Shown in pieces: positions 8,034 to 18,779 of a DNA stretch of 64,000 nucleotides. The position numbers and the translations under genes were made by a program. The notes under the pieces are model-generated. The model saw only the letters and a list, made by a program, of their open reading frames with translations. It was not told the origin of the DNA and made no database searches. Location: the NCBI GenBank assembly GCA_026391355.1, contig JAPLDH010000046.1:1-64000 (forward strand). Reading direction: 5' to 3'. The stretch's first letter is position 1, and the number at the start of each line of letters is the position of its first letter. Origin of the DNA: Bacteroidota bacterium. GTDB taxonomy: Bacteria; Bacteroidota; Bacteroidia; Bacteroidales; FEN-979.

Positions 8034-9077
8034 TCAAGAATTTGCAAAATACTTCACCTTAATTCTCAGGGCTACATTGACAAGGCCTATCAGTACAGGT
8101 ACCTCAACCAATGGTCCGATCACTGCTGCAAAGGCTTCCCCTGAATTAATGCCAAAAACTGCAATTGCAACCGCTATTGCCAGTTCGAAATTATTGCTGG
8201 CAGCCGTGAAAGAAAGGGTGGCCGATTGTTCGTAGGTGGCCCCTACCCTTTTGCTCATATAGAATGAGACCAGGAACATGATCACAAAATAAATGCTTAA
8301 TGGAATGGCAATCCGGATCACATCCAACGGGATCTTTACAATATATTCTCCTTTCAGTGAAAACATCACCAGGATTGTAAAGAGCAGTGCAATCAATGTA
8401 AGCGGACTGATCTTCGGAACAAATTTAGTGTGATACCACACTTTGCTTTTCACCCTGATGAGGATAAAACGGGTGAGAAATCCTGCCAGGAAAGGGATCC
8501 CGAGGTAAATAAATACACTTTTGGCGATCTGTTTTATAGTTATGGCTTCAACCGCACTGTTGGTAGGCAGACCAAACCATGCCGGGAATACTGCTATGAA
8601 CAGATAGGCATAAACGGAAAACAGCAATACCTGGAAGATGGAGTTGAAGGCCACAAGCCCGGCGCAATATTCAGTATCGCCCTTTGCCAGTTCGTTCCAT
8701 ACGATCACCATGGCAATACAGCGGGCCAGTCCGATCAGGATCAAACCATACATATAATCGATGTTGAACTGCAGGAAGATGATGGCCAGCAGGAACATCA
8801 GCACCGGACCGATGATCCAGTTCTGCACAAGCGATAATCCCAGTATCTTCGTGTTTTTAAATACGTCCCCCAGTTCTTCGTATTTGACCTTTGCCAGGGG
8901 CGGATACATCATCACGATCAGTCCGATGGCAATGGGAATGTTTGTCGTTCCCGACGACATTGAATTCCAGAATCCGGCAATACCGGGGAAAAGCCATCCC
9001 CAAAATACTCCAATGGCCATCGCCAGGAAAATCCATAATGTGAGATAGCGGTCCAGAAATTTTAGTTTTGTCTTCAC
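8034..9077 (-). CDS. acr3: ACR3-family arsenite efflux permease
   Basis: 347 residues, about ten membrane helices. The ACR3 signature is clear: [25 protein letters not shown] containing the conserved Cys, [11 protein letters not shown], and [18 protein letters not shown] near the end. It exports As(III), possibly Sb(III), across the inner membrane using the proton gradient. It follows the arsR gene after 68 bp and is the last gene of the minus-strand arsenic island. The spacer ahead of it holds short repeated TTTGAA(A/G) words. Confidence 0.95.
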
Positions 9078-9519: not shown

Positions 9520-10197
9520 TTAAAAACCGGTTGTCACAATCTTACCATCATTCAAGTGTAATTTCATTGTACCATATTCTGCTGCAATCGGGCTATGTGT
9601 TACCATAATGATGGTAATTTTATTTTCCTGGTTGATTTTCTTCATGAATTCCAATATTTCAAGAGATAATGTTGGGTCAAGATTCCCAGTTGGTTCGTCG
9701 GCCATGATGATCTGAGGATTGTGGATGATCGACCGGGCGATTGCAACCCTTTGCTGTTGCCCGGCAGATAGTTCCCGGGGAAGATGTTCCATCCTGTCAG
9801 ATAACCCTATATAATCAAGAATTTCACCGGCACGTTTAAACTGCTCCTTTCCTGGTATTTTTTCAAGTGCCAATGGAATCATCACATTCTGGATAGTTGT
9901 AAGATAAGGGATCAATGCAAAACTCTGAAGAATATAGCCGACCGATTTTTTACGAATATCGGTAAGGTGACAATCGTTGATGTTGTCAATTCTTTTTCCA
10001 TCGAAAATAATGTTTCCTGATGTTAGCCTGATCAAACCAAAGAGTGCCAGCAACAGAGTACTCTTTCCTGATCCTGACGGACCAGTCACCGTGACAAAAT
10101 CACCCTTATTAACGCTGAATGACACATGATCGAGTGCGTTGATCAACCCACCCTTATGATGATATTGTTTTACGATATTTTCTCCTTGTAAAATCAT
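9520..10197 (-). CDS. ABC transporter ATP-binding protein (MacB/LolD type)
   Basis: 225 residues with Walker A GPSGSGKSTL, Q-loop YILQSFALIPYLTTIQN, signature LSAGQQQRVAIAR, Walker B IIMADEPTGNLDP and the H-loop VTHSP. Typical of the LolD/MacB/FtsE-like class. It pairs with the FtsX-type permease immediately upstream (3 bp gap). Embedded in the arsenic operon, it may move a thiol or metalloid conjugate, or act in envelope stress; the substrate is not readable. Confidence 0.92.
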   Translation of the reverse strand: MILQGENIVKQYHHKGGLINALDHVSFSVNKGDFVTVTGPSGSGKSTLLLALFGLIRLTSGNIIFDGKRIDNINDCHLTDIRKKSVGYILQSFALIPYLTTIQNVMIPLALEKIPGKEQFKRAGEILDYIGLSDRMEHLPRELSAGQQQRVAIARSIIHNPQIIMADEPTGNLDPTLSLEILEFMKKINQENKITIIMVTHSPIAAEYGTMKLHLNDGKIVTTGF

Positions 10198-10200
10198 CGT

Positions 10201-11421
10201 TCAATCCTCCTGTAAGTTAGTATGAGGGTCAAATTTAGCAGCCAGATATGTTGGGAACAATGAACCTGCCAATGAAATGGCTACGGATAACAGGATCGAC
10301 CATAAGAGGTAAATATAGACCGGTTTTACAATAATACCGGCAAGATAGGGGCCTAAAATAACACCAGCCAGTGTTCCTAACAGATAGCCGAGGATTCCCC
10401 CTGCAACTCCAAGAACCAGCGCTTTTAAAATAAACATCATATAAATTGTTGAACGTTCCGCTCCCATCATTCTTAAGATACCAATTTCCCGTTTCCGCTC
10501 ATTGACATTCGCCCAGATGTAGTTACCAATCGATATCCCGCCAACGAAAAAGATGATGATCAGCATAACCAAAGTAACTCTCTTCATCAACTGATTGGTC
10601 TCAATTTGTGTTGAAACGATTTGGCCAATGGTCGTAACCCGGGTATCGGGAAGGATATTGCGCAATTTTCCCAGCAGTCCCTCTGAAATGGCATTGCAAC
10701 AACCCATGATCTCAATGGCAGATACCTGGTTTTCGATCCCCAAAAGTTGCTGTACATCCCGCAGGTTTGCGAAAATACGGTCATCATCGACCGTTCCGGT
10801 CTCCGGAAGTATTTTTACTACTTTGAAATCTTTTCCCATTATGTCAACAGATCTACCTGCAGTAAGATGTAAAAGTTTCGCAACCTGGGAACCCGCAATA
10901 CAATCCTTGGTATTCAATGTATCGAAGGCTTTGCGTTTTAGCTTTTCATCTTCAAAACCGTGCGATTTGGTCGTTGATTGGTTTGGTGCACAGGCTGTCT
11001 TTAACTCTGCGCCTAATAATCCTGATGACTGCCACAAAGGTTTGGATGCGATTTCGCTCTTTGGAAGTATCCCGGTAAGAACGACGGACTGACCACCCAC
11101 TTTAACCCTGCGGGTCAGTTTTGGAGACATGTTATCCACACCGGCAATTGTGGAAGTAAGGATCCGTTCCACATAATCCATCGGTAAGGTAGGAGCATCA
11201 ATATCGGAAGTATAATAGTTATCTATGCTTGCTCCTTGAGGTAAGACAAGAATATTGGCACCAAGATTATCAAGATTTCTGGCAACATTCTGTTCGGAAA
11301 CAACAGAAACACTTTGAATGGCCACAATTACAGCAATACCCAGGGTAATGGCCAATAATCCGGTAATCAACTGTGACTTCCGTTTCCATAATTCTATCAG
11401 GACAAGTTTTGAAATTGTCAT
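10201..11421 (-). CDS. ABC transporter permease, FtsX/MacB type
   Basis: 406 residues: an N-terminal helix (about 20-40), a large periplasmic MacB_PCD-like domain and three C-terminal helices with the NERKREIGILRMMGAERSTIYMMF motif of FtsX-type permeases. The periplasmic domain contains unusual cysteines (KTACAPNQ, TKDCIAGS and adjacent MGCCNAI), which would suit a thiol or metal ligand. Gap of 3 bp to the ATPase gene and 29 bp from the Cys-tail thioredoxin-fold gene upstream. Confidence 0.88.
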   Translation of the reverse strand: MTISKLVLIELWKRKSQLITGLLAITLGIAVIVAIQSVSVVSEQNVARNLDNLGANILVLPQGASIDNYYTSDIDAPTLPMDYVERILTSTIAGVDNMSPKLTRRVKVGGQSVVLTGILPKSEIASKPLWQSSGLLGAELKTACAPNQSTTKSHGFEDEKLKRKAFDTLNTKDCIAGSQVAKLLHLTAGRSVDIMGKDFKVVKILPETGTVDDDRIFANLRDVQQLLGIENQVSAIEIMGCCNAISEGLLGKLRNILPDTRVTTIGQIVSTQIETNQLMKRVTLVMLIIIFFVGGISIGNYIWANVNERKREIGILRMMGAERSTIYMMFILKALVLGVAGGILGYLLGTLAGVILGPYLAGIIVKPVYIYLLWSILLSVAISLAGSLFPTYLAAKFDPHTNLQED

Positions 11422-11450
11422 CGTCAGAGAGTTAAGAATTAAGAGTAATC

Positions 11451-12194
11451 CTATTTACAACCGCTTTTTGATGCTCCACCGGGACAGCAACCTCCTGCCG
11501 GCGCTTTCTTTGCTGTGCTCACAAGGGTATTCACATCTGTCAGGCCAGTATATGTTCCGGCAACTTGTCCCGCCTTATTGATTACATAGGTTACAGGCTC
11601 CTTAGCGGTCAGGTCGCATTTCAGGGTTTGTAATAATTTTGTCTCTTTTTTATCATCCAATGCAACCATCACCGTCACACTTTTATTATCCATTTTGTTG
11701 CAAGCCACGGCACAATTGTCCATAATACTTTTCTTTGAAGTCATGGACTCATTGTAAACTACGACATAAACTGATTTTCCATCTGCCAGCGCTTTGATTA
11801 ATTCAGAGGTTTTGGGTGAAGGAATCAGTTCTATTACCTTCTCATCTGTAGCATCTTTCAAAACAAGACCACCGGCAGTTGTTCCATTCTTATCCAAAAC
11901 AAGGATCAAGGGTAATGGAGCTCCGGTCAGACGATATTTTGTAACCAATGCACTATTGGCGGCATCTGAAGTATTCATTTTTATAACCACAGAAGAAGCT
12001 TTGAGGCCTTTCTTAGCATCATTGGCAATTGTAAATGCTTTGTCTGCATCAGCGCCAGTGGCATTGTAAGCAACAAGAAAGACAGCTTTGCCGGATTTGG
12101 TAGCTTTCTCTATTTCTGCAAAGGTCTGCGCATTAACCCGGACTAATCCTGTAAACAGAAGAAACAGGAAGATGATGGTTTGAATTTTTTTCAT
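11451..12194 (-). CDS. Secreted double thioredoxin-fold-like protein with Cys-rich tail
   Basis: 247 residues from the ATG at 12194 (MKKIQTIIFLFLLF), where a normal signal peptide begins; an upstream in-frame Met is unlikely because it would run through the promoter. Two similar segments follow, each with the thioredoxin-like pattern of a strand (AVFLVAYN, SVYVVVYN), helix and a PLILVLDKNG or PVTYVINKAG strand turn, but neither has a CxxC active site. The C-terminus is AGGCCPGGASKSGCK, a probable metal(loid)-binding tail. Leads the ABC-arsR-acr3 group behind a palindromic promoter. Function unknown. Confidence 0.6.
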   Translation of the reverse strand: MKKIQTIIFLFLLFTGLVRVNAQTFAEIEKATKSGKAVFLVAYNATGADADKAFTIANDAKKGLKASSVVIKMNTSDAANSALVTKYRLTGAPLPLILVLDKNGTTAGGLVLKDATDEKVIELIPSPKTSELIKALADGKSVYVVVYNESMTSKKSIMDNCAVACNKMDNKSVTVMVALDDKKETKLLQTLKCDLTAKEPVTYVINKAGQVAGTYTGLTDVNTLVSTAKKAPAGGCCPGGASKSGCK

Positions 12195-12212
12195 AGTTGT
12201 TGAATTTTTAGT

Positions 12213-12259
12213 ATAACGCAAATATACGTTATATTTTAAAATGACGTAATAATACGTCA
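12213..12259 (-). promoter_or_regulatory. Promoter with two ACGT-type inverted repeats
   Basis: On the minus strand the -7 element TATATTTG (12219-12226) lies exactly inside an inverted repeat ATAACG/CGTTAT (12213-12218 and 12227-12232). A second dyad, TGACGTA-N4-TACGTCA (12242-12259), lies just upstream. Such dyads fit an ArsR-type repressor. This would let the distal half of the arsenic island be induced separately. Confidence 0.6.
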
Positions 12260-12265
12260 AACATT

Positions 12266-13234
12266 TTAATTAATCTTTTTCATCGAGTTTCTTCCTGCTC
12301 TCAGAGCGATAAAATCTATCTTTTTTGTCAGTCTCAGGGAAACGGCATAGCCGAATGACATCTGTATGCTATTATAGTATTTGTAGATGGGTACATCAGC
12401 GTATGCAGATATATACCAATTGTGTTTAAAAGCATATGTCAGTTGTGGGGTGAAGAAGATCACATGATACCCTGAAGCGTCTATGATTTCATTATTCTCC
12501 CGGGTGGATTTGGCCCTGTTTTCATAGCGTAACTGAAGGTCTATGCCAACCCTTTTCCATACCTGGTAATTGAAGTACAATGCTCCGATCCATTGGTCCC
12601 CGTACTTGTAATAGAAGTTATCCGATTCGATCAGTTGTGAATATTCATAAGAAGAAAATCCTGCCAGAGCAATTTTCCCAATGCCTTTTGAAACAAAAAT
12701 AGTTGCAATGTACCCGTATCCTCCTGAAGATGGTTGGACTGAGATGGGCAACTGAACATTATCCACTTCCTGGTCAAACACTCCGACCGGAAACTTTACT
12801 CCTATGGTTGGGGAAATGGAAAGGCGCAACCTTGAATTGCTGTATGCGTTGAATTTAAGATATAATGCTGCATCACCCAAACCATGACCACTGTAAGAAT
12901 CAATGCCAGGGTTTTTGAGTGTTTTATTAAAAAAATAGCCCAAATCGGTAAGGACAGTAAGCCAATTGGTCACTCCATAACCGATTTGCAGTTCGGTGTA
13001 ATTACTGTAAGCTGCCTCCCGGAACGGCAATTCTCTGAAAGGGCCATCCTTTAAATAATATGAGCCGGAATGGCTGTATCTGTATGCCAGCGAAGTGGTT
13101 AAAACCCTGGATGGAAGGGCGGGTTGCTCAGCGTCACTGATGAACGGATTCCCGGAAGTGCAACATTGTGCCCGTGCTCCGGAACCATTGATCAGGAAGA
13201 AAATCAGTAATAAAAGCCCTGTATAACGAGCCAT
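12266..13234 (-). CDS. Outer-membrane beta-barrel protein, transporter-like
   Basis: 322 residues with a signal peptide ending at GARAQ. The mature N-terminus begins CCTSGNPFISD, then a long series of amphipathic strands (LTTSLAYRYSHSGSYY, LQIGYGVTNWLTVLTDLGYFF, LRLSISPTIGVKFPVG, AYADVPIYKYYNSIQMSFGYAVSLRL). It is likely a pore or passive transporter. It follows the small lipoprotein by 8 bp in the arsenic operon, so it may supply outer-membrane passage or metal contact through the Cys pair. Confidence 0.65.
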   Translation of the reverse strand: MARYTGLLLLIFFLINGSGARAQCCTSGNPFISDAEQPALPSRVLTTSLAYRYSHSGSYYLKDGPFRELPFREAAYSNYTELQIGYGVTNWLTVLTDLGYFFNKTLKNPGIDSYSGHGLGDAALYLKFNAYSNSRLRLSISPTIGVKFPVGVFDQEVDNVQLPISVQPSSGGYGYIATIFVSKGIGKIALAGFSSYEYSQLIESDNFYYKYGDQWIGALYFNYQVWKRVGIDLQLRYENRAKSTRENNEIIDASGYHVIFFTPQLTYAFKHNWYISAYADVPIYKYYNSIQMSFGYAVSLRLTKKIDFIALRAGRNSMKKIN

Positions 13235-13242
13235 AATTTCAA

Positions 13243-13599
13243 CTATTTATTTTCTGATGGATAGGGATAGACTCGTATCATGATCGTATCGGATACTTCT
13301 CCGGTTTCATTGAAAACCCTGCAGGTAATTGTATTATGTCCGGCACAGCTTGTACAGGCATTATATTGTACAACCTTTCCGTTCCCCAATATCCTCCCGT
13401 GATTGGCCACCCACCCATATTGTAAGTTTTCCCCGGTAGCTTCCACCGAAATCTCGGTTATTTCATATGCCTTAACCGGATTGATTGAGGCCGAGAGACT
13501 CACTATTTTTATACTCTCAGAAAGAGTGGGATCACTCTTTTTTGAACAGGCCCATAGGCTGAATGTTACAAATGCAAAAACAATGTATCTACTTTTCAT
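13243..13599 (-). CDS. Small lipoprotein with Ig/PKD-like domain
   Basis: 118 residues. A lipobox (SLWAC, Cys at 18) is followed by a beta-sandwich domain resembling PKD/Ig folds (YEITEISVEATGENLQYGWVANHGRILG) with an internal CTSC pair (NACTSCAGHNTITCRVF). Outer-membrane lipoprotein by prediction. Tightly packed between the thioredoxin-like and barrel genes; it may be a periplasmic partner of the barrel. The CTSC may be redox active or structural. Confidence 0.6.
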   Translation of the reverse strand: MKSRYIVFAFVTFSLWACSKKSDPTLSESIKIVSLSASINPVKAYEITEISVEATGENLQYGWVANHGRILGNGKVVQYNACTSCAGHNTITCRVFNETGEVSDTIMIRVYPYPSENK

Positions 13600-13608
13600 G
13601 GGAGTGTG

Positions 13609-14106
13609 TTAAAAACTAATTTTTTGAAATTCCTTGTTCAAATCATCAAAAGAAAAATAACCTGTATGCCGGAATACTTCCTTACCCGAAGCATTTAGTA
13701 ACACCTGAGTTGGAATGGCAGCAATTCCAAAGTATTTCATCATATCCTGGTTTTCAGGAAGAAGAATATTAAGAAATTTCACATTCACTTTTTGAGGATA
13801 GTTTTCTTTGACCTCCTTCATTACTACTTCCATTTTCCTGCAGGAAATACATCCTTTTGCCCCAAACTCCAGAAAAGTAGTTGCAAATCCTTCCCCGTTT
13901 TTCTGATAATTGAATGCAGAATCAACGATCTGTGCAATACTTTTTTTAATTCCTATGCCGGCTTGCTCTTTCATCTTTTTGGAAACAAAGCTATTCATGC
14001 TACCTCTGAAAACAATAAGCAATACGAAAAAAAGAACAGCCAGAACAATGAAGGTGATGTTCAGAATCTGTTTAAATCGAAATGTATTGTTATTTGATGA
14101 ATTCAT
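13609..14106 (-). CDS. Membrane-tethered thioredoxin-like protein (CISC)
   Basis: 165 residues from the ATG at 14106 (MNSSNNNTF), which overlaps the upstream ArsF-like gene by 17 bp. One membrane helix (about 15-33), then a periplasmic thioredoxin fold with FGAKGCISCRKMEVVM (C86-x-x-C89) and the cis-Pro strand FGIAAIPTQVLL. Similar to thioredoxins that accept electrons from CcdA/DsbD-type membrane proteins. ArsG in the same operon is CcdA-like, so electrons for periplasmic disulfide or arsenical reduction could flow through this pair (inference). Confidence 0.75.
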   Translation of the reverse strand: MNSSNNNTFRFKQILNITFIVLAVLFFVLLIVFRGSMNSFVSKKMKEQAGIGIKKSIAQIVDSAFNYQKNGEGFATTFLEFGAKGCISCRKMEVVMKEVKENYPQKVNVKFLNILLPENQDMMKYFGIAAIPTQVLLNASGKEVFRHTGYFSFDDLNKEFQKISF

Positions 14107-14497
14107 TGATCTTGGCTGTGAGCTCTTTTTCAAATCTTCCGGTATCGTTTGACTTGGCAAAGTCACTAAGAATGGAGGATACATCAATTGACGTCACCTT
14201 TTTTCTTTTAGTTTTTTCAATTATAAGGGTTTGCGATTGAGCATTGTACTTTTTGATCAGTTCATTGTTTGTAGTGTCGCTAAGTTTAACTTGCCTGAAT
14301 TTCACACATCCATCGGCCCAGTTTTTCTCAATGATCTCTTTGACTTTTGCTTCAAGCGTATTACATGCCCTGCCTTTGCAGCATGCCAAATTTGCTTTGA
14401 AATACAGAACTTCAACTCCGCTCTTCTTTTGCTGGGCAAAGGTTGTTGCTGTTCCAGCTATTATAGCCAGTAACAGGATAATAAGACTCTTTTTCAT
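14090..14497 (-). CDS. Second ArsF-like protein
   Basis: 135 residues with a signal peptide (to about 21, TTFAQ). The body resembles the ArsF protein at 17712: VEVLYFKANLACCKGRACNTLEAKVKE against IEVFYFHFTRRCMTCQNLEKTAKK, then a strand-turn (QTLIIE/QTLLVT) and a C-terminal helix. Cysteines at 39, 40 and 45 replace the CMTC of the first copy. ArsF proteins are described as partners of ArsE in reducing nitro-organoarsenicals. This is a diverged paralog with a different Cys pattern, so a different substrate is possible. Confidence 0.65.
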   Translation of the reverse strand: MKKSLIILLLAIIAGTATTFAQQKKSGVEVLYFKANLACCKGRACNTLEAKVKEIIEKNWADGCVKFRQVKLSDTTNNELIKKYNAQSQTLIIEKTKRKKVTSIDVSSILSDFAKSNDTGRFEKELTAKINEFIK

Positions 14498-14555: not shown

Positions 14556-15011
14556 CTATTGGTCGCTACCGCAGCTACAACCACAAAACGATTTTCCGGA
14601 ATAGGAATCCGGATTGATGCTTCCAATCATTCTTACTATCTCAGTTGCGATTTCATCTATCATTTGAAGATGTTCTTTATTCAGATCTTTATTCCTGACG
14701 ATTTTTTTGTTAAGTGCATTTTCATTCCCTATGATTTTCGAAACATCAATAAAACCGGAGATCTTACCGCTATACTTTTCAGTGCTTCTTTTAGCGCAAA
14801 GTTTATCGCAGCCGTCAACCGATATTGTCGGAAACACTTTTGCAAAATTTCGTTCTTCTTTGCCGCCCGCAAGATATAGTGGCAGACAGAGTGTTACAGT
14901 TTCAACCAGTTTTAATTCCTCAAGAACTTTTCTCGTTGCGAGCCTTGAAATAGTTCCGCCGAGACATTCCTCGCCGCTGCATGATACTACGCCTACTTTC
15001 AATTCAGACAT
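14556..15011 (-). CDS. DGC-domain putative zinc-binding protein with Cys-rich tail
   Basis: 151 residues. The DGC fold is recognised by VSCSGEECLGG near the start, a LCLPLYLAGG strand and the VDGCDKLCAKR motif. The C-terminus adds FCGCSCGSDQ. Third DGC protein in a row, 12 bp after the second. The family is annotated as putative zinc-binding and often lies beside arsenic or Hdr genes; biochemistry is unknown to me. The many Cys suggest metal or metalloid coordination. Confidence 0.75.
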   Translation of the reverse strand: MSELKVGVVSCSGEECLGGTISRLATRKVLEELKLVETVTLCLPLYLAGGKEERNFAKVFPTISVDGCDKLCAKRSTEKYSGKISGFIDVSKIIGNENALNKKIVRNKDLNKEHLQMIDEIATEIVRMIGSINPDSYSGKSFCGCSCGSDQ

Positions 15012-15023
15012 GAATACTCCTCC

Positions 15024-15416
15024 TTAATTAATTTCATTTATTTTTTTCGCGATCTTCTCAGCGATTTCACTCATTACGGCTTCGCTGTCAGCATTAAGTT
15101 GTGTTGGTGAACCAAACTTTTTTCCTTTATGTTCCTTCACCGTGTCCAGGACTTTCATTTCTTCTACTACTATTCCACCAGCTATTGAGACATTTTTTGA
15201 GGCGCACATTTTTGGGCAACCGTCAACGGTAATGCAATCAAAGCCTTCGATTTTAACCTTAACTTCTTTATCACCGGTTACTATGTAAGCGAGGCAAACA
15301 GTTTCTGATTTTTCCGGACATAATTCAAAAACTGTTTTCAAAACTGCTTCTCTTGCCATTAGTCCATATACCTTACCAATGCCACTGCAGGGAACAACTT
15401 TCACTTTTTTATCCAT
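15024..15416 (-). CDS. DGC-domain putative zinc-binding protein
   Basis: 130 residues: VVPCSGIGKVYGLMAREA, VCLAYIVTGDKEVK and VDGCPKMCASKNVSIAGG mark the DGC domain; a helical C-terminus follows. The first motif has a single Cys where the GcvH-fused copy has two. Overlaps the DGC-lipoyl gene by 8 bp. Probably forms a complex with the other two DGC proteins (inference from stacking). Confidence 0.75.
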   Translation of the reverse strand: MDKKVKVVPCSGIGKVYGLMAREAVLKTVFELCPEKSETVCLAYIVTGDKEVKVKIEGFDCITVDGCPKMCASKNVSIAGGIVVEEMKVLDTVKEHKGKKFGSPTQLNADSEAVMSEIAEKIAKKINEIN

Positions 15417-16266
15417 TTACGTCCTTCACCTTATTTTTCACTATTTCAAAATATTTATCGAAACCGATTAAGAGTTCTTTATCGCTCTCAAAATCGGTCA
15501 GTTCAAGCTCTGCAATCCAACCCGATTCATACGGGTTTTCATTGATGAGTTCCGGCTGTTGTACAATCGTTTCATTGATGGAAATGACCTTACCGCTTAC
15601 AGGTGAAATTAATTCAAAGACGGACTTTGATGATTCGATCTCTCCAACTTCCCCGAATTGGTCAATTTCCGCACCTATTTCGGGTGGTGTAAAATATAAA
15701 ATATCGGAAAGGTTTTGTTGAACGAAATCGGTAACGCCTATTCTGGCCCGGTTTCCAATTACATAAACCCAGCAGTCATTTTCATTAAACCAGACCTCCT
15801 GATTTTTTGGTACTCTGAAAATGAATTTGCCATTCTGATAGGTTTCATATTCGAATTTAACTAAGAAGCTTGTCTCAACAGAAGACTGCGTAACCTTAAC
15901 TTCGGTATTGTTCAGCCCGTTCTGGATGATTTCAATAAGAGCATTTTCATTCTCCAGAAGCCTGAGATTACTCCCTAATTCAATTTTATGTTTTTTTGCT
16001 TCTTCAGTTATCGTTACCTGCCTGGAAATTTTCAAGTTTTTTTCCGCAGAAAGCTTACTCGCGCATCGGGTCTGGCAGCCATCTATAACTAAAAGAGGAT
16101 GTTTGCCGGCGATTTTATTATATTTTGCTTCAGCAACTCTGTAATACACAGGGCAAATAATTTCATTTTTAGGGTTCTCGCATAATTTTATCGCTATTTC
16201 CCTTGAAATTACACCAGCGCATTTATCCAATCCATTACATGGGAGGATGGCATAATTTTCAACCAT
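15409..16266 (-). CDS. DGC domain fused to GcvH-like lipoyl domain
   Basis: 285 residues in two parts. Residues 1 to about 120 are a DGC domain (LPCNGLDKCAGVISREIA, VIDGCQTRCASK). Residues from about 155 are a complete glycine-cleavage H-like lipoyl domain: VWFNENDCWVYVIGNRARIG, IGAEIDQFGEVGEIESSK with the predicted lipoylated Lys214, SPVSGKVISIN and NPYESGWIAELEL. No other glycine-cleavage gene is nearby. The architecture recalls LbpA-type lipoate carriers working with Hdr-like complexes. It overlaps the ferredoxin and the second DGC gene by 8 bp each. Proposed: a dithiol carrier or transfer protein in an arsenic- or sulfur-linked redox system. Confidence 0.8.
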   Translation of the reverse strand: MVENYAILPCNGLDKCAGVISREIAIKLCENPKNEIICPVYYRVAEAKYNKIAGKHPLLVIDGCQTRCASKLSAEKNLKISRQVTITEEAKKHKIELGSNLRLLENENALIEIIQNGLNNTEVKVTQSSVETSFLVKFEYETYQNGKFIFRVPKNQEVWFNENDCWVYVIGNRARIGVTDFVQQNLSDILYFTPPEIGAEIDQFGEVGEIESSKSVFELISPVSGKVISINETIVQQPELINENPYESGWIAELELTDFESDKELLIGFDKYFEIVKNKVKDVNG

Positions 16267-16552
16267 TGCTTTCCATCTCCTTTCTTATTTCCCTGATCCT
16301 TTGCGTCGTCGCATTTTTATCAGGAAAAGATAGTGCGTCGGGGCCACAAATCTTCGAGCATGCCCTGCAGAAAACAACACAATTATTCGCATTCCTGATG
16401 ATTAATTTGATGTCTTCGGTTTCCCTGACCTCAAAAACTTTATGAGGACAGAATTTCACACATTCCATACAATAATCGCATTTTGTATAATCGATTGTCG
16501 GTTTCCAATCGATTTTATCGCGTTCAACTCCCATGAATGTAGTCTCGCTCAT
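16259..16552 (-). CDS. 2[4Fe-4S] ferredoxin
   Basis: 97 residues with two cluster motifs: C25-x2-C28-x2-C31-x3-C35 followed by Pro (CDYCMECVKFCP) and C58-x3-C62-x2-C65-x3-C69 (CVVFCRACSKICG). Cytoplasmic. Overlaps both neighbours (4 bp with the HdrA-like gene, 8 bp with the DGC-lipoyl gene). Probably the electron-entry subunit of the HdrA-like/DGC-lipoyl complex. Confidence 0.88.
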   Translation of the reverse strand: MSETTFMGVERDKIDWKPTIDYTKCDYCMECVKFCPHKVFEVRETEDIKLIIRNANNCVVFCRACSKICGPDALSFPDKNATTQRIREIRKEMESNG

Positions 16553-16923
16553 TTTGACTCCTCCAATTTTTCAAGCGCTGCACTTACTTTTTCAATTGCC
16601 TGGTCGGTCGTCATATCCCGCACATCGATTGCGGTTAAATCTTTGTTTACATCGAGACCGGCTTCTGCAAAAGCGTCTTTGAACATCTTACGCTGCATAT
16701 TCAGAGCACAGGCTCCGATAACAACTTTCCGATGCGCTTTAAGATAATCATGTAAAAACCGGTCTCCGTCTTCCTCACAAAGTTGAGGATGGATAAATCC
16801 ATATTCAACCGGCAATTCGATTCTCACTCTGTTTATAAAGTCCCATATATCCATTTGCGAAAATCCGGGACATTTCCCCGTGCAAACGCACATAATGAAA
16901 CCAGGTTTTTCCTTTTCTGACAT
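16549..16923 (-). CDS. HdrA N-terminal-domain-like protein
   Basis: 124 residues. FIMCVCTGKCPGFSQMDIW, IHPQLCEEDGDRFLHDYLKAHRKVVIGACALNMQRKMF and the FAEAGLD segment resemble the N-terminal domain of heterodisulfide-reductase HdrA, which precedes its FAD domain; here that domain stands alone. Cys at 12, 14, 18 and in QLC/GAC could hold an iron-sulfur cluster. It begins the Fd-DGC block 71 bp after arsG. Identity moderately sure; role inferred. Confidence 0.65.
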   Translation of the reverse strand: MSEKEKPGFIMCVCTGKCPGFSQMDIWDFINRVRIELPVEYGFIHPQLCEEDGDRFLHDYLKAHRKVVIGACALNMQRKMFKDAFAEAGLDVNKDLTAIDVRDMTTDQAIEKVSAALEKLEESK

Positions 16924-16994
16924 AAATTCAATTTTCTAAAGGTCAGTTTTTTGTAGAAATCCGAAACGATAAATTAAAAAAGTGTAACCTTTTT

Positions 16995-17693
16995 CTATAT
17001 GAAAAATACCGTTATGTAATAAATCCCGACCAGTATAAACACTACCGCCACTACTCTCCGGAACCACAATTCGAATAGTTTTATCCGATCATAAAGTTTA
17101 CCTACATTCCCGACCGCGTACGCAAGCAACCATGCAAAGATGATCACCGGCAGGCCTGTTGCAATTGCGAAAACTACCGGTAAATACAAACCACTTGCAC
17201 TGGCAATAGTCATTGGAATCAACATAGCAAAATAGAGTACACCGCTGTAAGGACAAAATGCCATTGCAAATACCATCCCCAACAATAATGTCCCCCAGTA
17301 GCTTCGCTTGCTGTGTTCTCCCATTTTCTCAGTTAAACCAGAGAAACCAGGGAATTTAATCTTAATGAAGTCGAGCATAAAAAGACCTATAATGATCAAC
17401 AAAGGACCCAATAATTTTTCTCCCCATCCCTGAAAGAGCATTGAAACATGCATTTTACTGGCCCCAAAAAAGAGGATTACTCCTAAACCAGTATAAGAAA
17501 TCGCCCGGCCAAGAGTGTAAACCAATCCTTTCAGAAAAACCCGTCTGCGGTTTTCAATATCACGGCTGATAAACCCAATAGCTGAGATATTGGTTGCCAA
17601 GGGACAAGGGCTGATCGCCGTCATCAATCCCAGAATGAAGGCAGTCAGTGCAGCATAGTGGGAGTTTTCGAGAATAGTTTGCAGCCAATTCAT
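16995..17693 (-). CDS. arsG: ArsG-family aromatic aminoarsenical efflux permease
   Basis: 232 residues with about six helices. The first carries MTAISPCPLATNISAIGFIS, a CcdA/DsbD-like motif of this family; FCPYSGVLYFAMLIP lies in the fourth helix. Third gene of arsR-arsE-arsF-arsG. Published work on ArsEFG in Shewanella describes ArsG as the exporter of aminoaryl arsenicals formed by ArsE/ArsF. The family call rests on order and size as well as motifs; a thiol-disulfide role is an alternative. Confidence 0.78.
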   Translation of the reverse strand: MNWLQTILENSHYAALTAFILGLMTAISPCPLATNISAIGFISRDIENRRRVFLKGLVYTLGRAISYTGLGVILFFGASKMHVSMLFQGWGEKLLGPLLIIIGLFMLDFIKIKFPGFSGLTEKMGEHSKRSYWGTLLLGMVFAMAFCPYSGVLYFAMLIPMTIASASGLYLPVVFAIATGLPVIIFAWLLAYAVGNVGKLYDRIKLFELWFRRVVAVVFILVGIYYITVFFI

Positions 17694-17711: not shown

Positions 17712-18107
17712 TTATTTTACCATCCCGTCTATCGCCTTCTTAATCTCCGCAGTCAGTTTATCCGGATCATTATTCGCATACAAAAACCCTTTCTCCGTCA
17801 GGTCAACACGCTTATCACCGCAGGTCACCAAGAGGGTCTGGCCTTCAACCTTATGCATGGTACCGATCTCCTCGCCGGCTTTTTCGTCAAGATTGATACT
17901 CTGAAAGGAGATCTCTCCCTTTTTCAGTTTATCTGCATACAGCGTTTCAACGGCTTTCTTAGCAGTCTTTTCCAGGTTCTGACAAGTCATACACCGCCGG
18001 GTAAAATGGAAATAGAAAACTTCAATTTTTGCTGTTGTTGCAGGAGTTCCGGCCAACATAACTGATACCGTAAACAGTACCAGTAAAAACAAAACACTTT
18101 TTTTCAT
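17712..18107 (-). CDS. arsF: ArsF-family protein, nitro-organoarsenical reductase subunit
   Basis: 131 residues: signal peptide or anchor (VLFLLVLFTVSVMLAG), then VFYFHFTRRCMTCQNLEKTAKKAV with C39-x-x-C42, EISFQSINLDEK and QTLLVTCGDKRVDLTEKGF. This matches the small ArsF protein of the arsEFG operon. It lies 9 bp after arsE and 18 bp before arsG. A paralog lies at 14090. The predicted location is periplasmic or membrane-facing, which fits the CcdA-like ArsG neighbour. Confidence 0.78.
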   Translation of the reverse strand: MKKSVLFLLVLFTVSVMLAGTPATTAKIEVFYFHFTRRCMTCQNLEKTAKKAVETLYADKLKKGEISFQSINLDEKAGEEIGTMHKVEGQTLLVTCGDKRVDLTEKGFLYANNDPDKLTAEIKKAIDGMVK

Positions 18108-18116
18108 AGATGATAT

Positions 18117-18356
18117 TTATTTTGTTAGTAATTGTTTGATTTCATCGGATGAAGGCACACGCCCTTTTACAATGACTTTTTCATCCACAACAAGGGCTGG
18201 GGTCGACATTATCCCATATTTCATGATTTCCATAATGTCTTCCACCTTGGTAATAGTGGCAATGATGCCGTTCTTTTCTACCACTTCACGGGTTATTTTT
18301 TCCAGGGTTCTGCAATTTGGACAACCGGTACCCAGAATCTTAATTTCCATTTTCAA
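18117..18356 (-). CDS. arsE: ArsE-like small thioredoxin/redox-active disulfide protein
   Basis: 79 residues with GTGCPNCRTLEKI (C12-x-x-C15), ITKVEDIMEIMKYGIMSTPALVV with the cis-Pro and VKGRVPSSDEIKQLL. This is the short thioredoxin-2 (redox-active disulfide) family, the size of ArsE. Cytoplasmic. Second gene of the operon, 77 bp after arsR. Confidence 0.8.
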   Translation of the reverse strand: MKMEIKILGTGCPNCRTLEKITREVVEKNGIIATITKVEDIMEIMKYGIMSTPALVVDEKVIVKGRVPSSDEIKQLLTK

Positions 18357-18433: not shown

Positions 18434-18742
18434 TCATTTTCTAAAAAATCCGTCAAAAAGCTTTTGAGCCTCTTCCCAGTGCTCCTTATTGATACAATAT
18501 TTAATGTAGGGAGGGTTGATCTCGCCCTGGATCAGACCGGCTTTTTTCAACTCCTTGAGATGTTCTGAGAGTGTTGACCGTGCAATAGGAAGTTCTTCTG
18601 CCATGTCGCCACTATAACAGCATTTACCAATGTTGTCGGCGAGAAAGTCCAGGATGAAAATCCTAACCGGATGTGCCATTGCTTTTGCATACCGTGCCAT
18701 TTTTTCCTGGTTCACCGTGAAATATTTCTTTTCTGTAATCAT
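18434..18742 (-). CDS. arsR: ArsR-family metalloregulator of the arsEFG operon
   Basis: 102 residues: AMAHPVRIFILDFLADNIGKCCYSGD, then recognition helix IARSTLSEHLKELKKAGLIQG. Candidate As(III) ligands are C41, C42 and C83. Similar to the second ArsR at 9146 (shared Cys just before the helix-turn-helix and in the YC wing), but with an extra adjacent Cys. An inverted repeat overlapping its start region suggests autoregulation. Confidence 0.93.
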   Translation of the reverse strand: MITEKKYFTVNQEKMARYAKAMAHPVRIFILDFLADNIGKCCYSGDMAEELPIARSTLSEHLKELKKAGLIQGEINPPYIKYCINKEHWEEAQKLFDGFFRK

Positions 18743-18753
18743 ATCATTTTGTA

Positions 18754-18779
18754 TTTCGTAGAATAACGAAACAAAAGTA
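18754..18779 (-). promoter_or_regulatory. arsEFG promoter and operator
   Basis: On the minus strand the -7 element TACTTTTG (18772-18779) is followed directly by the inverted repeat TTTCGT-N6-ACGAAA (18754-18771). A repressor bound there would block transcription start. 11 bp before the arsR start. Confidence 0.62.

Follow-up and report, generated by a model that had tools for sequence, protein, structure and literature searches.

The stretch analysed here (henceforth the window, 64,000 nucleotides at the start of contig JAPLDH010000046.1 from a Bacteroidota bacterium) carries on its minus strand, at 14556-16923, five closely stacked genes predicted to encode a protein resembling the N-terminal domain of the heterodisulfide reductase subunit HdrA (HdrA-N), a 2[4Fe-4S] ferredoxin, a fusion of a DGC domain with a GcvH-like lipoyl carrier domain, and two further DGC proteins. 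They follow arsR-arsE-arsF-arsG after a gap of 71 bp (Table 1), and both gene calls and profile matches uphold this composition, which an earlier sequence-only reading had proposed. That reading had all the genes overlapping by 4-8 bp; the first four do so (by 4, 8 and 8 bp), whereas the fifth begins 12 bp after the fourth. Judging from gene neighbourhoods, the link of this cassette to arsenic is strong, and its five genes would probably constitute a redox module that depends on lipoate and serves anaerobes in detoxifying arsenic.

Table 1. Features of the cassette and its surroundings in the window
Feature	Position	Strand	Evidence or remark
HdrA N-terminal-domain-like protein, 124 aa	16549..16923	-	NF041778 HdrA model positions 4-101, E 7e-5
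2[4Fe-4S] ferredoxin, 97 aa	16259..16552	-	eight invariant Cys
DGC-GcvH fusion, 285 aa	15409..16266	-	PF08859 67 bits, PF01597 105 bits
Second DGC protein, 130 aa	15024..15416	-	PF08859 45 bits
Third DGC protein, 151 aa	14556..15011	-	PF08859 55 bits
ArsG, DsbD-like permease	16995..17693	-	NF040495 317 bits, cut-off 200
ArsF family protein	17712..18107	-	NF040494 101 bits, cut-off 60
ArsE, MTH895-type thioredoxin-like	18117..18356	-	TIGR00412 119 bits
ArsR-family repressor	18434..18742	-	PF01022 39.6 bits, cut-off 22
Palindrome TTCGT-N6-ACGAA upstream of arsR	18755..18770		exact before the same arsR in 11/12 Bacteroidota-type loci examined
Degenerate palindrome upstream of HdrA-N	16950..16965		2 mismatches; exact at the corresponding position or close to it in L061, L062, L070, further up (-112) in L063
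Second ArsF-like protein	14090..14497	-	NF040494 48 bits, below cut-off 60
Thioredoxin-like protein	13609..14187	-	recurrent neighbour of the cassette in Bacteroidota
ACR3 arsenite efflux transporter	8034..9077	-	TIGR00832 448 bits, cut-off 283

By sequence and predicted-fold similarity, the first protein is placed in the HdrA N-terminal domain superfamily. A profile search connects it with HdrA 7bkb (E 4e-4), four of its five conserved cysteines fall on columns of the HdrA N-terminal domain, and the best Foldseek matches of its predicted model (predicted local distance difference test, pLDDT, 81.8) are HdrA chains, with probability 1.00, TMq about 0.6 and E values of 1.5e-3 to 5e-3, none of them below 1e-3. 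The five cysteines (C12, C14, C18, C49 and C72) are kept in 46 of 46 aligned sequences, and the window's protein is 66-70% identical to archaeal ones. A full-length HdrA with its flavin adenine dinucleotide (FAD) domain was ruled out, given the short chain, 20.8 bits against a cut-off of 1400, and a match confined to the start of the model. The eight cysteines of the ferredoxin are kept in all 49 sequences compared.

The lysine expected to be lipoylated in the fusion, K214 within an ESSK motif, is present in 46 of 46 aligned fusions and falls on the ESxK motif in an alignment with GcvH proteins of solved structure; against the NCBIfam gcvH model, the fusion scores 102.1 bits, below the cut-off of 115.85. 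Both of its domains are modelled with confidence (pLDDT 87.5), their relative placement being unsure (predicted template modelling score 0.54), and the linker between them (residues 122-133) is poorly ordered, as would be expected for a swinging carrier. The three DGC domains of the cassette surpass the PF08859 gathering score of 27 bits and contain four cysteines and the DGC motif. These cysteines are kept in 44-46 of the 46 sequences aligned for each domain (in the fusion, C38, C64 and C68 in all 46 and C10 in 44), and the third DGC protein has a Cys-rich C-terminal tail in most aligned relatives. Confident Foldseek matches of the fusion cover only the GcvH half (GcvH fold). For the DGC half, VIA gave ArsH 2q62 (Z 6.8, 117 aligned, 3.5 Å) and the phosphosugar isomerase 3etn (Z 7.0, 113 aligned, 4.4 Å), middling scores that perhaps reflect just a common arrangement and therefore lead to no conclusion on the fold. 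The alignments of the cassette proteins omit L052-L058, which are the same genomes under other locus identifiers, and that of the fusion also omits the partial loci L094, L106 and L107.

Recurrence of the cassette beside arsenic genes

Is this arrangement peculiar to one genome? In a set of 61 related genomes that contains the window's own, PF08859 occurs in nine, eight of which have three matches each together with the five-gene cassette, while the ninth (G454) has a single DGC gene in the same stretch as arsREFG and ArsP_1-like genes. In the other seven relatives with the cassette, arsREFG lies upstream in five; the contig of L053 ends at the cassette, and L055 has no labelled ars gene in its stretch. 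A wider scan of genome contigs, seeded with the DGC part of the fusion alone, and thus with nothing from arsenic genes, returned 48 loci, seven of them being the relatives' genomes under public names. All five genes were found in 42 of the 48, in the same order in 39 and permuted in three (L079, L081 and L089, with two DGC genes at the front); here and below, neighbour labels come from BLAST against the window's genes and representatives and not from a full annotation. The six incomplete loci are either cut by contig ends (L094, L095, L101, L102) or reduced, to the ferredoxin and two DGC genes in L106 (Moorella) and to the HdrA-N gene, the ferredoxin and a shortened fusion in L107. The carriers include Bacillota (the laboratory acetogen Clostridium ljungdahlii with L080 in strain ERI-2, C. 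ragsdalei, Sedimentibacter, Desulfosporosinus, Sinanaerobacter, Formimonas warabiya and Eubacterium), many metagenome-assembled genomes (MAGs) of Bacteroidales, one MAG each from a planctomycete and an actinomycete, and Loki- and Sigyn-type (Asgard) archaea. The recurrence of the same five-gene set in several phyla is more than chance would produce.

When the whole fusion served as query against 395 genomes of the phylum, the search retrieved mainly ordinary GcvH-type matches (in 392 of the 395) and, outside the window's genome, no match covering the DGC part among the matches listed; plasmid searches with HdrA-N and with the DGC part returned no match. In a tree drawn up to look for horizontal spread, the archaeal rows form one clade and Bacteroidota are nested among Bacillota; the long branches make its root unsure. 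The L071 contig is labelled Alphaproteobacteria, its fusion branches with a Bacteroidales sequence and its arsREFG is 67-89% identical to the window's; it is probably a mis-binned contig.

The sequence-only reading had made its arsenic setting depend on the co-occurrence of such cassettes with ars genes, and this co-occurrence was found. ACR3 lies within the retrieved stretch in 20 of 44 cassette genomes against 0.22 expected under random placement, an excess that, with related genomes counted separately, is an effect measure and not an exact probability. This control covers 44 of the 48 loci (L094, L101, L102 and L105 being left out) and counts TIGR00832 genome-wide, with 49 of 57 matches used and eight weak ones dropped; 19 of the 20 observed copies are over the curated cut-off, and that of L095 is a fragment below it. 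Near 32 of 49 loci (the window plus the 48 from the scan) there are dedicated ars genes (ACR3, ArsA, ArsC, ArsD, ArsM, ArsP_1 or ArsG labels), and near 40 of 49 either one of these or an ArsR-like gene. arsG is present in 12 of the 15 Bacteroidota-type loci, and no cassette locus of Bacillota or archaea has an arsG label. The idea that the cassette needs ArsG is weakened by the relatives, 41 of the 61 having ArsG over the cut-off versus eight with the cassette.

Other baits led to the same setting. HdrA-N matched 53 of 398 Bacillota genomes: nine matches at E <1e-60 all lie in complete five-gene cassettes (L080 and L093, already known, and L138-L144, new), one more is truncated (G873), 14 at about 1e-31 to 1e-34 represent a second variant, and the remaining 29 are weaker and in many cases lie in long frames, which is what HdrA itself would give. 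The second variant, retrieved for 12 of the 14 matches (L146-L157), is a two-gene pair, for a short ferredoxin and for a homologue of HdrA-N with about 40% identity, from which DGC and GcvH are absent; an ArsR-like gene accompanies it in 12 of 12 loci and ACR3, ArsP_1, ArsC, ArsA or ArsD labels in nine. The DGC bait matched 43 of 299 Bacillota genomes. Of the DGC genes found outside cassettes (20 places from 19 of the 43 genomes, mostly high-scoring), 18 share their stretch with ACR3 or an ArsP_1-type permease, the exceptions being L172 and L188. At most places in L169-L187 and in L059, a more distant Bacteroidota relative, the non-cassette DGC genes are seen with ArsR, an ArsE-like thioredoxin, and an ArsP_1-type permease or ACR3. 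PF08859 as a whole may be regarded as a candidate arsenic-linked family.

Three split Bacillota loci (L178, L181 and L187), reached by the DGC bait only, have ACR3 together with two DGC genes, a GcvH-like gene that stands by itself, genes for an OsmC-like protein and Lpd (dihydrolipoyl dehydrogenase), and a gene for a lipoate ligase or for a protein resembling one; neither HdrA-N nor ferredoxin is labelled in them. In L187, profiles identify GcvH (125.8 bits, cut-off 115.85), the lipoyl synthase LipA (TIGR00510, 361 bits, cut-off 310), Lpd (492 bits), ACR3 (454 bits) and OsmC (PF02566, 49 bits), its ligase-like gene being below the ligase cut-offs, which the ligase of L178 passes (348 vs 280). 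Lipoyl synthase is profile-verified in L187 only; L181 has a lookalike by eye, and none lies in the stretch read of L178. Because HdrA-N with ferredoxin, DGC, and GcvH with Lpd are each linked to arsenic even outside complete cassettes, the cassette looks like an assembly of arsenic-linked modules.

Lipoate genes, other neighbours and an operator-like palindrome

Lpd is encoded near 15 of the 49 loci (37-63% identical over 384-465 residues to the profiled representative, which scores 524 bits with TIGR01350), directly before HdrA-N in 11 and, for the permuted cassettes of L081 and L089, immediately ahead of or behind the five genes; a match in L076, only a 28% relative, was excluded from the count. 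HdrA-N, ferredoxin and the flavoprotein Lpd are encoded side by side in many Bacillota. A lipoate ligase gene (representative, 430 bits with TIGR00545) is found near nine of the 49 loci, directly behind the DGC genes in six, the match in L098 being weak. The invariant lysine, together with these Lpd and ligase genes and, in one related locus, lipoyl synthase, makes it likely that the fusion is lipoylated on K214. Elsewhere in the window's genome there are genes for the lipoate ligase LplA (420 bits) and for Lpd (555 bits).

Sulfur-related genes are also recurrent. Rhodanese-like genes occur in eight of the 49 loci, all of them Bacteroidota-type (8/15; L062, L063, L064, L065, L067, L070, L071 and L073), and lie between arsG and HdrA-N in L062, L063, L064, L067 and L070; the window's cluster has no counterpart. 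A cysteine-desulfurase-family gene is near nine of the 49 (L075, L077, L080 as a fragment, L084, L085, L092 with TIGR01977, L096, L098 and L106) and neither label appears in 32 of the 49. The same desulfurase family is found in L140, L142 and L143. It is accompanied by a PF04060-type iron-sulfur-domain gene in L077, L080, L084, L092 and L106, and by a Se/S-carrier-like gene in L075, L085, L096 and L098 (4/49). The CCG domain typical of HdrB/HdrC has ten matches in the window's genome, none of them on the window's contig, and was not found among the profiled neighbour-cluster representatives.

HgcA-like genes reside in cassette-bearing ars clusters of five of the 49 loci (L062, L063, L068, L073 and L083), the L063 copy scoring 438 bits with NF040863 (cut-off 275); a ferredoxin gene lies behind them in four of the five, L083 being cut by the contig end. 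In the Loki- and Sigyn-type archaea L097, L101, L102, L104 and L105, a DUF166 gene is near the cassette, upstream in L104 and directly behind the third DGC gene in the other four. As for the window itself, its upstream trio qualifies as ArsEFG, with an arsG permease over the cut-off adjoining arsE and arsF, which concerns the neighbours and not the cassette. The second ArsF-like gene that the sequence-only reading placed after the cassette is there, as a match that does not reach its cut-off. Beyond the thioredoxin-like gene follow three genes (11451-13599), a MacB/FtsX-type ABC exporter, a second arsR and ACR3. A Pfam profile search assigned no family to the three genes, whose products appear, by eye only, outer-membrane-like or lipoprotein; relatives of most genes in 9520-13599 (the ABC exporter and those three) recur with the cassette in several Bacteroidota loci.

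The palindrome upstream of arsR (Table 1) is likely an ArsR operator; the twelfth locus of that set, L067, is truncated by the contig end. Before HdrA-N it was sought in 46 loci, exact copies being found in Bacteroidota-type loci only, and there in four of the 14 with a full upstream stretch. Copies with one mismatch precede HdrA-N in L060 and L067, and none was found in L064, L065, L066, L069, L071, L073 and L094, while L068 offers 15 bp of upstream sequence only. In L061, the exact site begins 28 bp before the HdrA-N start codon, and no labelled ars gene is present in the 14.5 kb of this locus. Bacteroidota-type loci, 285 kb in all, hold 18 exact palindromes, of which 11 precede arsR, four precede HdrA-N, two (L071 and L073) precede a different gene behind arsG and one (L064) is elsewhere. 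The weight of this element comes from position and conservation, not from number, the window shuffle control at one mismatch being uninformative (2 found vs 1.75 expected). It suggests that expression of the cassette could be under an ArsR-type operator.

A predicted lipoyl-dithiol relay, its alternatives and known systems

Lipoyl dithiols bind trivalent arsenic strongly, lipoic acid being a classic arsenic victim. They are also low-potential reductants, at about -0.29 V, as the available part of PMC6067878 states. The most economical interpretation would be that such a dithiol relays an arsenical before efflux. The GcvH domain of the fusion would carry the lipoyl arm on K214, and the dithiol would be charged from reduced nicotinamide adenine dinucleotide (NADH) by Lpd and/or with low-potential electrons routed via the ferredoxin and the iron-sulfur protein that resembles HdrA-N, a pair that could either supply or take such electrons. 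The four-cysteine DGC domains, one fused and two separate, might hold the thiophilic arsenical and swap it with the arm. In this way, the module could reduce and/or capture an arsenical (pentavalent, thiolated or organic) in the form of a trivalent adduct with the dithiol, and this adduct would be handed to the local exporter (ArsG or ACR3 in the window; ArsP-type permeases or ACR3 in Bacillota). The sequence-only reading had put forward an electron or thiol relay acting on an arsenical or thioarsenical; it is partly supported and is the best interpretation, its substrate, direction and activity being putative. Overall, the evidence points to an undescribed way of handling arsenic in anaerobes.

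Several observations weigh against this. The counts are taken over related loci and are phylogenetically non-independent. Nine of the 49 loci have neither an ArsR-like nor a dedicated ars gene at the threshold used; four of them are contigs under 5 kb (L088, L094, L101 and L102), and the others (L061, L099, L104, L105 and L107) are not short, although laxer or profile criteria do reveal an ArsR-like gene in L105 and L107. The ArsR and ArsP_1 families are broad and serve other metals too, and ArsG is so widespread among the relatives that its presence alone says little. The pair variant does without the lipoyl and DGC parts and the split variant without HdrA-N and ferredoxin, so the arsenic link does not hinge on any one part. 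Neither Foldseek nor VIA gave a confident fold match for the DGC half. The profile search of the window's genome found no LipA over the cut-off, so that, with LplA and Lpd present, the carrier could be lipoylated by scavenging. Regarding regulation, ten of the 14 Bacteroidota-type loci have no exact palindrome before HdrA-N and the window's own copy is degenerate; in the 4.83 Mb of its genome the exact palindrome occurs four times (one of them here), as often as a reversed control pattern (also four), which puts the genome-wide number at chance level.

How else could the cassette be understood? An unlikely alternative is a sulfur-transfer module, comparable with the lipoate-binding protein of the sulfur-oxidising Hdr-like (sHdr) system, in which the lipoyl arm of the fusion would move sulfane sulfur to or from arsenic and so make or break thioarsenates, with a rhodanese or a cysteine desulfurase as the source. 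The rhodanese-like, desulfurase-family and Se/S-carrier-like genes described above speak for it, as does the combination of an HdrA-like protein, a lipoyl carrier and a rhodanese, which resembles sHdr as described in the available part of PMC6067878; nonetheless, most loci bear neither of the two sulfur labels, and the CCG domain is missing both from the window's contig and from the profiled neighbour representatives. Rather less likely is a non-catalytic arsenic buffer, whose DGC domains and lipoyl dithiol would sequester As(III), act as a chaperone for the pumps and shield housekeeping lipoyl enzymes. The four conserved cysteines in each of a cassette's three DGC domains, and lone DGC genes adjoining pumps, would fit such a role, but a buffer would need no ferredoxin, HdrA-N, Lpd or lipoyl synthase, and yet these occur in or beside the loci.

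It is very unlikely that the module really acts on some other thiophilic metal or organometal (mercury, antimony, copper or zinc) and that a common stress regulon explains the ars neighbours. HgcA-like genes near five of the 49 cassettes would agree with it, and so would the non-arsenic members of the ArsP_1 and ArsR families (SaoE and SO_0444 models also match). However, labels of ACR3, ArsA, ArsC, ArsD and ArsM, which are arsenic-linked, recur near the cassette, and hgcAB beside ars genes is an already known pattern according to the available part of PMC7438021. That ordinary genes of one-carbon or glycine metabolism stand beside an ars operon by chance is hardly credible: the carrier domain is a GcvH homologue, but the fusion stays under the gcvH cut-off, no gcvT or gcvP was found among the profiled neighbour-cluster representatives (not every neighbour was profiled), and an arsenic association that spans several phyla and separate gene arrangements speaks strongly against coincidence.

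Going further than the lipoyl-dithiol relay itself, the cassette could be imagined as a split heterodisulfide-reductase-like machine, with HdrA-N, ferredoxin and Lpd replacing the domains of HdrA and coupling NADH and ferredoxin to a lipoyl-arsenic heteroadduct; lipoic acid would then be a dedicated arsenic coenzyme of bacteria and Asgard archaea, and DGC a general arsenic-handling class. We regard this extension as speculative and, on balance, improbable. Less ambitiously, the pairing of a lipoyl carrier with arsenite pumps, joined in related loci by Lpd, lipoate ligase or lipoyl synthase, suggests that anaerobes turned an arsenic weakness into a tool. The uncharacterised DGC family thereby gains a functional setting, and cultured carriers such as Clostridium ljungdahlii make the idea directly testable.

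Several known systems share parts with the cassette. The H protein of glycine cleavage has the ESxK lysine in common with the fusion, and the separate GcvH of L187 passes the cut-off that the fusion fails. The SirTM/GcvH-L/LplA2 systems of staphylococci and streptococci employ an extra GcvH-like protein outside glycine cleavage, and so does the cassette, whose profiled neighbour representatives differ in including no sirtuin or macrodomain. In lipoyl-dependent peroxide reduction, Ohr/OsmC works with lipoylated proteins and Lpd, forming a relay from NADH through Lpd and a lipoyl protein to a thiol enzyme; the OsmC-like gene of the split loci is reminiscent of it, whereas the cassette has an arsenic setting, DGC domains and no OsmC gene among its five. 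The methanogen heterodisulfide reductase HdrA (5odc, 7bkb) has a similar N-terminal domain with the common cysteine columns mentioned above; unlike it, the cassette has a small stand-alone protein, a separate ferredoxin and no FAD/thioredoxin-reductase-like domain. Within the window, ArsEFG sits upstream (NCBIfam names ArsF a nitrophenyl compound nitroreductase and ArsG an aminobenzylarsenical efflux permease) and differs as a thioredoxin-like/DsbD-like trio without lipoate, ferredoxin or DGC.

No title or abstract among those listed from the open-licence literature links DGC or a lipoyl carrier to arsenic genes, and PMC9144182, which names arsEFG, does not mention GcvH, ferredoxin or words in "lipo-"; on these grounds the cassette is new as a predicted system. 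One likeness is to sHdr sulfur oxidation, where, according to the available part of PMC6067878, the lipoyl carrier LbpA works with Hdr-like proteins, one gene cluster holds an HdrA-related protein and a GcvH-like lipoyl carrier, and a specific lipoate ligase and, in archaeal clusters, an Lpd gene are linked to it. Membership in that system was rejected because, in spite of the GcvH-like carrier, HdrB/HdrC-like subunits are not on the window's contig. The cassette further departs from sHdr in having HdrA-N without the FAD domain, a carrier fused to DGC, and arsenic genes as its neighbours.

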